64,000 nt of DNA, from positions 5,447,550 to 5,511,549 of the forward strand of contig NC_092617.1 of NCBI RefSeq assembly GCF_047663525.1. Direction: 5' to 3'. This DNA comes from Anas platyrhynchos (taxonomy: Eukaryota > Chordata > Aves > Anseriformes > Anatidae). Position numbers and translations under genes: made by a program. The notes beneath the pieces are model-generated. The model was not told where the DNA came from and did no database searches. It saw only the letters and a program-made list of their open reading frames with translations. Every line of letters begins with the position of its first letter. Position 1 is the first letter of the stretch. Below, one piece after another: positions 56,701 to 59,700 of the stretch.

Positions 56701-59700
56701 AACGACCCCAAAAGGGAGCCCGGGACCCAAATCTGCCAGAAATTGCCCCAAAATGGGACCAAAACGGGGAGAAAACGGCTCAAAATGGGCCCAAAATGGC
56801 CAAAAAGGGTATTTAGGGTCAGAGAATGGTCCCAAAATGGCCCTAAAACGGCCCCCAAAAACACCCAAAAATGGGCAAAACGACCCCAAAAAGGAGCCCG
56901 GGACCCAAAACTGCCGGAAATTGCCCCAAAATGGGACCAAAACAGGGAGAAAATGGCTCAAAATGGGCCCTAAATGGACAAAAAGGGTATTTAGGGTCAT
57001 GAAATGGTCCCAAAATGGCCCAAAAACAGCCCCCAAAAACACCCAAAAACGGGCAAAATGGACCCAAAAGGGAGCCCGGGACCCAAATCTGCCTGAAATG
57101 GCCCCAAAATGGGGGTGAAATGGGGGGGAAAGGGGTCAAAATGGACCCAAAATGGCCAAAAAGGGTATTTAGGATCGTGAAACAGACCCAAAATAGCCCA
57201 AAAATAACCCAAAAAACACCCAAAAATGGGCAAAATGGACCCAAAAGGGAGCCCGGGACCCAAAACTGCCAGAAATTGCCCCAAAATGGGGGTGAAATTG
57301 GGGTAAAAGGGGTCAAAATGGGCCCAAAATGGCCAAAAAGGGTATTTAGGATCAGGGAATGGTCCCAAAATGACCCTAAAATGGCCCCCAAAAGACCCCA
57401 AAAAGGGCAAAATGGACCCAAAAGGGAGCCCGGGACCCAAATCTGCCAGAAATGGCCCCAAAATGGGGACGAAATGGGGGTAAAAGGGGGCAAAATGGGC
57501 CCTAAATGGCCTAAAAGGGTATTTAGGATCGGGAAACAGACCCAAAATGGCCCCAAAATGACCCTAAAATGACCCTAAAAGGGGCAAAATGGACCCAAAA
57601 GGGACCCGGGGACCCCAAAATGCATGAATTGGCCCCAAAATGGGATTAAAATGGGGAGAAAAGGCCCCAAAATGGCCAAAAACGGACAAAAGTGGATTTA
57701 GGATCGTGAAATGGCCCTAAAATGACCCGAAAAAGAGGGAAATGGCCCCAAAAGGGATGTGGGGACCCAAAACTCCCTGAAATGGCCCCAAAAGGGATGT
57801 GGGGACCCAAAACTGCCAGAAATTACCCCAAAATGGGACTGAAATTGGGCCAAAATACCCCAAAATGACCCTAAAAGCAGGAAAACGACCCTAAAAGGTC
57901 TGTGGGACCCCAGAAGTGCCCGAAATGTCCCCAAAACGCTCCGGAAACATCCCCTAAACCCCCCTGACCCCAAAAGTCCCAAAATCGCCTGTTTTAAGCC
58001 CAAATCCGTGCCCGCAGTGCAGCGAGCTCGAAACACCCCTAAAAGCGGAGAAACGGCCCCAAAAGCGCTGTGGGGCCCCAAAAGTGCCCGAAACGGCCCC
58101 AAAATGGGACTGGAATGGGGAGAAAAGGGCTCCAAATGGCCCCAAAAGGGGAGAAATTGACCCAAAAAGCGTCTGGGGACCCAAAACTGCCAGAAATTGC
58201 CCCAAAATGGGAGTGAAATGGGGTAAAAAGGCCCCGAAAATTGCCCAAAATGCCATTTAGGGCCCTAAAATGACCCTAAAAGGGGCAAAATGGCCCCGAA
58301 AGGGATGTGGGGACCCAAAACTCCCTGAAATGGCCCCAAAAGGGATGTGGGGACCCAAAACTGCCAGAAATTACCCCAAAATGGGACTGAAATTGGGGAA
58401 AAATGCCCCAAAATGACCCTAAAAGCGGAGAAACAGCCCCAAAAGCGCCGTGGGGCCCCAAAAGCGCCCGAAATGTCCCCAAAAGTCTCCGTCAGCATCC
58501 CCTAAACCCCCCCGACCCCAAAAGTCCCAAAATCGCCTGTTTTGAGCCCAAATCCGTGCCCGCAGTGCAGCGAGCTCGAAACGCCCCTAAAAGCGGAGAA
58601 ACGGCCCCAAAAGGTCCATGGGGCCCCAAAAGTGCCTGAAACCGCCCCAAAATGGGACTGGAATGGGGAGAAAAGGGCTCAAAATGGCCCCAAAAGGGGA
58701 GAAATTGACCCAAAAAGCATCTGGGGACCCAAAACTGCCTGAAATTGCCCCAAAATGGGATTAAAATGGGGAGAAAAGGCCCCAAAATGGCCAAAAATGG
58801 ACAAAAGTGGATTTAGGATCGTGAAATGGCCCTAAAATGACCCCAAAAGGGGGCAAAATGGCCCCAAAAGGGATGTGGGGACCCAAAACTCCTTGAAATT
58901 GCCCCAAAATGGGACTGAAATTGGGCCAAAATGCCCCAAAATTGCCCTAAAAGCAGGAAAACGACCCTAAAAGGTCTGTGGGGCCCCAAAAGTGCCCAAA
59001 ATGTCCCCAAAAGGTGCCAGAAGCATCCCCTAAACCCCCCTGACCCCAAAAGTCCCAAAATCGCCTGTTTTGAGCCCAATTTGGTGCCCGCAGTGCAGCG
59101 AGCTCGAAACGCCCCTAAAAGCGGAGAAACGGCCCCAAAAGGTCCATGGGGCCCCAAAAGCGCCCGAAACGGCCCCAAAAGTCTCCGTCATCATCCCCTA
59201 AACCCCCCCCAAAAAGCCCCATTCCCGAAAAGTCCCAAAATCGCCTGTTTTAAGCCCAAATCCGTGCCCGCAGTGCAGCGAGCTGGCCGAGCGCAGCCTG
59301 GCCCGGTGCCCCCACTGCCGCAAGGTGTGAGTGACCGGGGACCCTAGAGGGGACCCTATAGGGTGGGGGGGGGGGGTCCTATAGGGGCAGGGGGGTCCCT
59401 ATAGGGGATGGGGGGTCCCTATAGGGGGTTATGGGGTGGGGGGGACCCTATAGGGTGGGGGGCCCTATAGGGGACCCTATAGGGGGTGATCCTATAAAGG
59501 GGACCCTATAGGGGGCTATAGGGTGGGGGGGGGCCTATAGGGTGGGGGGACCCTATAGGGGGTTATGGGGTCCTATAGGGGGTGGGGGGACCCTATAGGG
59601 GACATATGGGGCCGGGGGGGGCTATAGGGGGTGATGGGGTCCTATAGGGGGGGGGGGGGGCTATAGGGTGGGGGGACCCTATAGGGGGTTATGGGGTCCT

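Follow-up and report, generated by a model that had tools for sequence, protein, structure and literature searches.

Partial copies of the exon 5 acceptor edge in the repeat-filled intron 4 of a duck gene taken to be PIP4P1

The window analyzed here is a 64,000-bp stretch (C31:5,447,550-5,511,549) of C31, a 6.33-Mb contig within a 1.26-Gb genome of 42 contigs. Tandem Repeats Finder masks 88% of the window as tandem repeat, and the share for the following 40 kb is 90%; unmasked islands of at least 40 bp in the window number 57 and total 7,060 bp. NDRG2 (Pfam Ndr, E 1.5e-95) and PNP (Pfam PNP_UDP_1, E 8.6e-25, exons 5-6) lie on the minus strand, and their best PDB matches are NDRG2 and purine nucleoside phosphorylase, respectively; the peptide from PNP exons 2-3 had no Pfam match. 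On the plus strand, the joined exons 3-6 of PIP4P1 match Pfam Tmemb_55A (E 5.3e-50) over residues 1-118 of 119, and exon 5 keeps the frame with both exon 4 and exon 6. In the 58 kb downstream of the window (C31:5511550-5569549) there is a gene with a TROVE domain (geneX) as well as APEX1 (Pfam Exo_endo_phos) and OSGEP (Pfam TsaD). We take the plus-strand gene to be PIP4P1 and not PIP4P2 because of its neighbors PNP, APEX1, and OSGEP, by synteny; the names APEX1 and OSGEP are likewise assumed from Pfam families, peptides, and synteny, and geneX is presumably TEP1, given its neighbors. This gene content, together with a repeat-filled but gene-bearing chromosome end, is consistent with avian dot chromosomes as described in PMC9974502 and PMC12954441.

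We placed exon limits manually, using splice signals and reading frame with the vertebrate proteins as a guide. For NDRG2, the acceptor of exon A is doubtful and the 3' end was left untraced; exon B (window position 18795) has an apparently unusual, doubtful donor, GTCTGT, right before an array, and its limits were set by frame only. The last intron of geneX may conceal an exon. A short G run in the real PNP exon 4 (38298-38474) has one base more than in any of the five intronic copies, and the exon's frame shifts at that run; the copies (42624-39936) keep the frame of vertebrate PNP. The extra base is either an assembly error or a recent allele. In PIP4P1 exons 1-2 (50716-51687), the frame breaks inside exon 2 and the phases of exons 1 and 2 do not match, which suggests residual small indels in the assembly.

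The features of PIP4P1 from exon 4 to exon 5 are the following (window positions):

55137..55242, plus strand: exon 4, with donor GTGAGT next to it; its joined translation with exons 3, 5, and 6 is the Tmemb_55A match
55243..59273, plus strand: intron 4, 4031 bp, mostly tandem repeats
55263..57735, plus strand: array with a 177/355-bp period, some 14 copies of the 177-bp unit (Tandem Repeats Finder); the exon 11-mer is absent
57985..58028, plus strand: copy 1, 33-bp acceptor flank and 11 exon 5 bases, 44/44 against the real edge
58029..58576, plus strand: 548-bp unit, closing with copy 2 (exon part 58566-58576)
58577..59104, plus strand: 528-bp unit, closing with copy 3 (exon part 59094-59104)
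59105..59284, plus strand: 180-bp terminal unit, closing with bases 1-11 of the real exon 5
59274..59326, plus strand: real exon 5, 53 nt, with donor GTGAGT next to it

The repeated block is 44 bp long and consists of 33 intron bases, including the splice acceptor, and the first 11 bases of exon 5. The original prediction placed this acceptor and its 11 exon bases at 58018, 58566, and 59094, ahead of the exon at 59274, and proved correct to the base: TCGCCTGTTTT begins at 57985, 58533, 59061, and 59241, and the exon part TGCAGCGAGCT begins at 58018, 58566, 59094, and 59274, with no other occurrence of the exon part in the window on either strand. Position 59274 is the real exon 5, and the three upstream positions are partial copies, which match the real block at 44/44, 43/44, and 40/44 bases. 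The 11 exon bases are invariant across all three copies; beyond them, 3/3 copies continue with CGAAAC, as opposed to GGCCGAG in the real exon. Because the copies share this exon breakpoint, they probably go back to one duplication that ended 11 bases into the exon and was then multiplied, and not to three captures.

Spacings between successive block positions are 548, 528, and 180 bp. The 180-bp terminal unit starts directly after the exon part of copy 3 and can be aligned to the last part of the longer units. In a 103-bp repeat family the step is 168 bp at precisely the three places that hold an exon copy, and 40, 103, 134, or 154 bp at all others. The founding duplication was probably about 180 bp in size, like the terminal unit. 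The exon copies are confined to the last 1.3 kb of the intron, and its first 2.5 kb is the 177-bp array. An assembly artefact, in which one acceptor unit was falsely expanded, would be in keeping with small indel errors in the assembly, as suggested by what look like one-base frame shifts in two exons (PNP exon 4, PIP4P1 exon 2) and by the phase mismatch between PIP4P1 exons 1 and 2. The units, however, differ by many substitutions and indels (a 300-bp segment is 91% and 79% identical to the reference copy) as well as in their spacing, and raw nanopore data verified such structures at chicken PHF8, according to the authors of PMC12954441. We therefore consider false expansion very improbable.

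The acceptor edge of PIP4P1 exon 5 was originally described as a third independent case, on the other strand from the first two. The first two were not named in that description; the minus-strand gene PNP has two, at exon 4 (five copies) and exon 6 (three copies), and a survey of the 44 edges of 22 introns in the window returned these three cases. In the window test, long edge-spanning matches exceeded every edge-swap control only at PIP4P1 exon 5 (11 exon bases) and PNP exon 4 (19); the donor edges of PNP exon 5 and PIP4P1 exon 1 also beat the swap controls, with exon-side scores of just 3 and 4, and were left uncounted. PNP exon 6 fell below the cut of this test because of an indel in the acceptor.

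Extended to 122 kb (82 edges of 41 introns, the introns at the 5' ends of PNP and APEX1 being left out), with a criterion of at least 8 exon and 3 intron bases, the survey found edge copies in six introns and none in the other 35 of 41. The cases are PNP exons 4 and 6, PIP4P1 exon 5, APEX1 exons 4 and 5, and geneX exon k+2, with 2-6 copies each; these numbers include a PNP exon 6 copy at 33369 that lies below the intron-side cut of the extended survey, and leave out four weak 8-base matches in APEX1 intron 4 (74726, 74347, 74174, and 74000). There is one exon breakpoint per intron, with a single exception: in 2/5 copies of PNP exon 4 the match to the exon stops about 6 bases sooner. The five cases besides PIP4P1 are:

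39889..42654, minus strand: PNP intron 3, exon 4 acceptor with about 42-48 exon bases, five copies; exon-part starts 42624, 41961, 41386, 40452, and 39936, real exon 38474-38298
32850..33917, minus strand: PNP intron 5, exon 6 acceptor with 9 exon bases, three copies; exon-part starts 33887, 33369, and 32858, real exon from 32346
APEX1 (within C31:5516218-5529012), minus strand: exon 4, 6 copies, 30 exon bases
APEX1 (within C31:5516218-5529012), minus strand: exon 5, 3 copies, about 145-150 exon bases, identical to the real exon over 145
geneX: exon k+2, 2 copies, about 41 exon bases

APEX1 thus has two successive introns, each with copies of the acceptor edge of the exon that follows it.

Tandem repeat makes up so much of the window and of the next 40 kb (88% and 90%, as given above) that short matches are abundant, and matches of this kind could in principle arise by chance in low-complexity sequence. 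Against chance stand the 44-bp block with its common breakpoint and the controls: the test fired in merely 1/410 shuffled introns and in 2/656 pairings with other introns. The swap and shuffle controls lead us to reject a chance origin, to which we assign a negligible probability.

Copying of exon edges into repetitive introns is a published phenomenon. Exon stuttering, or sequence stuttering, on avian dot chromosomes was described by Hron et al. (2026, Genome Biol Evol, PMC12954441), whose genome-wide chicken screen with shuffled controls reports 1,345 hits in 236 introns (190 on dot chromosomes) and 115 genes, at a threshold of at least 20 nt and 42.1 bits. As in the published cases, a lateral part of a coding exon is copied with its splice site, in direct orientation, through the adjacent repetitive intron, and the real exon is intact; the chromosome, judged by the 6.33-Mb contig and the 88% tandem repeat of the window, may likewise be of the dot type. 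Intron length that differs from one individual to another is a further trait of the published system. The copied part in PIP4P1 reaches the exon border and includes the splice site, and the real exon 5 is intact. Unlike the published cases, the exon parts of PIP4P1 exon 5 (11 nt) and PNP exon 6 (9 nt) fall short of the 20-nt, 42.1-bit threshold, which is a rule of detection and not a definition. PIP4P1 intron 4 is a new example, with a short exon part, of something already known.

We ran a comparable screen with BLAST, keeping plus-strand hits within the same gene of at least 20 nt and at least 36 bits, and trimming exons with an unknown far end to 30-60 nt, or to 520 nt in the case of APEX1 exon 5. 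All 16 hits that pass the published limits of 20 nt and 42.1 bits were on the acceptor side, and there were no donor-side or distal hits even at the lower 36-bit cut. Such a screen would see 4/6 of the introns with edge copies and miss PIP4P1 exon 5 and PNP exon 6; in other words, the published thresholds pass over short exon parts in 2/6 introns here.

It had been proposed from this locus that edge copying is a general mode of array growth, with arrays seeded at exon edges. That the copying is general is borne out by several cases on both strands and by the published chicken screen of 236 introns (PMC12954441). Seeding at exon edges finds some agreement in the six edge cases within 122 kb; repeats thin toward the edges, however, and 35/41 introns lack an edge copy. 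If exon edges did seed arrays, a first duplication at the edge would be followed by spread of the array inward, and both the frequency of acceptor-edge copies in long introns (6/10 of those of at least 3 kb) and the share of the six introns that the copy-bearing stretch takes up (27-70%) would fit. But among the 22 introns of the window, 31-bp windows with a copy in the same intron (at least 27/31) drop from 17/19 at 200 bp before the acceptor to 2/22 at the acceptor edge, and on the donor side from 13/19 at 200 bp to 0/22 at the edge. This scarcity of repeats at edges argues against exon edges as the place where arrays generally originate. The introns without edge copies, moreover, are repetitive wherever they are long enough for testing, and the 177-bp array of PIP4P1 lacks the exon 11-mer, so that array was probably not seeded by the exon. 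On the edge-distance counts and the 177-bp array we reject seeding as a general origin, and rate it as rather unlikely overall. It is better to say that acceptor edges are sometimes captured by an array already in place, with amplification of the resulting long unit afterward.

We consider it very probable that the PIP4P1 copies are a case of exon stuttering by such capture, in an array already present in intron 4. The copies are direct and tandem, with a common exon breakpoint, nested units, and an intact real exon 5, and the same anatomy is found in five other introns on this chromosome. The order of events and the founding and amplification mechanisms we infer as follows. Intron 4 would already have been a tandem-repeat array when about 180 bp were duplicated in tandem, from a left end within the array to a right end 11 bases into exon 5, so that array, acceptor, and exon start were copied together. 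Since the original exon 5 was left intact downstream, the mRNA could stay intact as well. The composite unit may then have been amplified as higher-order units of 548 and 528 bp, giving three partial copies before the real exon.

Template switching or slippage, in replication or repair, might account for the founding step; unequal exchange or gene conversion might account for the amplification. Junction microhomology, as read by eye, is mostly 0-2 shared bases, with about 6 (TGGCCA) at APEX1 exon 5; at the PIP4P1 junction the same reading found no microhomology that would clearly account for the breakpoint. Repeated conversion by the real exon would fit the copies as well as a single founding event with subsequent amplification. 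The authors of PMC12954441 speculate about replication stress with DNA secondary structure or about meiotic gene conversion, and our data fit either.

Minisatellite (VNTR) higher-order units grow by unequal exchange. The PIP4P1 array resembles them in its tandem units, nested periods, and homogenized copies, and differs in having coding bases and a splice acceptor within its unit, whose end falls in a functional exon.

Divergence among copies differs between their exon and intron parts. Between copies, differing sites amount to 23/1,396 in exon parts, 124/1,692 in upstream intron parts, and 200/1,720 in downstream parts; between copies and the real edge, exon parts differ at 6/957 sites (plus 10 gaps, all in PNP exon 4) vs. 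138/1,183 for intron parts. These contrasts are inflated to some degree, as the match to the real exon was what delimited the exon parts, a procedure that favors low divergence, and repetitive flanks align less surely. For APEX1 exon 5, with exon copies at 0/435 differences vs. 48/427 for the upstream flanks and three 145-bp exon copies identical to each other and to the real exon, the contrast is hard to explain by such effects of delimitation and alignment. In geneX, copy-copy divergence is equal in exon part and flanks (1/41). The low divergence of exon parts suggests recent capture, exchange among copies, or an array turnover much faster than point mutation, and also that much of the change in arrays is not ordinary point mutation; exon parts within arrays can thus serve as an internal marker of array change.

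Every PIP4P1 copy retains AG and all 11 exon bases, and AG is retained in 22/22 copies across the six introns. This retention, along with the lower copy-copy divergence of exon parts than of upstream flanks (23/1,396 and 124/1,692), would be expected if the copies were kept as regulated alternative acceptors that lower PIP4P1 output. Low divergence would, however, also be expected if copies were young or exchanged sequence with one another, or if array monomers turned over faster, and splicing into a PIP4P1 copy would, as read from the sequence, lead to a stop after 80, 58, or 35 codons. We regard a regulatory role as quite improbable, and the three spare acceptors of PIP4P1 are presumably mostly ignored by the spliceosome.

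A further feature of the survey, which the original prediction leaves unmentioned, is its polarity: all six edge cases are acceptors (6/41 vs. 0/41 donors, Fisher p = 0.026; 5/35 vs. 0/35 for the first 70 edges, p = 0.054), with the proviso that introns of one gene are not fully independent and that PNP and APEX1 contribute two cases each. The four genes with cases divide evenly between the strands; the direction of copying therefore follows the gene. Arrays in the window lie nearer to donors than to acceptors (a 25/31 copy at 20 bp inside the intron for 10/22 donor vs. 3/22 acceptor flanks), and decoy acceptors before the real one would be expected to do more harm there. Neither the position of arrays nor the simplest argument from selection, then, predicts a bias toward acceptors. 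In PMC12954441, PHF8 intron 18, the main example, has copies from exon 19, i.e., from the acceptor side; the paper mentions donor and acceptor sites alike, and no acceptor or donor bias was found stated in the sections and under the terms searched.

Edge copies are also associated with intron length, being present in 6/10 introns of at least 3 kb vs. 0/31 shorter ones (Fisher p = 4.7e-5). The six copy-bearing introns measure 3.0-6.0 kb, and the stretch from first copy to real edge spans 27-70% of the intron; the remainder, without that stretch, is 1.8-2.8 kb, and the median length of the other introns is 1.66 kb. Either edge-bearing units drive intron length or long arrays had more chances of capture; the data fit both. 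That edge copying is polar, affecting acceptors and not donors in either gene orientation, and that units carrying acceptors, 0.2-1.6 kb apart, make the longest introns long, is a reading we put forward tentatively and hold to be possible but somewhat doubtful. If polarity relative to transcription were true, it would point to a duplication coupled to transcription or splicing rather than to plain slippage. Within the literature searched and the available parts of PMC12954441, neither the acceptor polarity nor the link to the longest introns was found stated, and in these two respects our cases differ from exon stuttering as published there. The polarity and the link to long introns are new in this sense, and testable on the published set of 1,345 exon-stuttering hits.

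Two other candidate regularities were tried and rejected. Repeat homogeneity shows no gradient along introns, the 5' and 3' thirds being alike in 32 introns of at least 900 bp (Wilcoxon p = 0.52). Nor is there a clean rule of strand composition, as sense-strand GC skew is negative in 5/6 capturing introns (-0.01 in one of them) and strongly positive in one.

Intronic arrays of many motifs, in the window and in C31:5511550-5569549, share a near-10-bp period, which is close to one turn of DNA. The main autocorrelation peaks of the window are at 10, 20, 31, 41, 51, 62, 72, 83, 93, 104, 114, and 124; minor local maxima lie at 15, 76, 88, 90, and 110. In the 122 kb, the strongest Fourier period is 9.7-10.6 bp or double that in 27/33 introns of at least 600 bp (flat expectation about 10-11%), and 10.2-10.5 bp or double in 17/33; because certain motifs are related from one intron to another, the 33 do not count as independent. 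A search of the literature on helical period and minisatellites found nothing on point among the papers listed. PMC9974502 places the 41-bp CNM repeat of chicken at centromeres and lists PO41 with the satellite repeats. Our arrays resemble CNM and PO41 in their short units on small bird chromosomes, and 41 bp is about four steps of 10.3 bp; they are unlike centromeric CNM and satellite PO41 in being gene-specific and intronic, with many motifs.

Near-10-bp power is 14.8 in the window, and 7.6 and 9.6 in samples L022 and L023 (near the window). Among the three highest peaks of each, none of the 18 10-kb samples of C31 below 5.3 Mb (L004-L021) had a near-10-bp peak above a power of 1.5; the top peak of L018 and L019 is at 9.95, at background power, and L009 shows a modest 20/10/15-bp autocorrelation. 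Ten 3-kb controls from other contigs, again among the three highest peaks of each, had none above 1.8 there (peaks at 10.4 in L025 and 9.9 in L030). A 14-bp period dominates L014 and L016 (C31, 3.2 and 3.8 Mb), and a different repeat, with peaks at 11.15-11.2 and 14.6 bp, is found at 0.2-1.1 Mb of C31 (L004-L007) and in a sample of contig C37 (L032).
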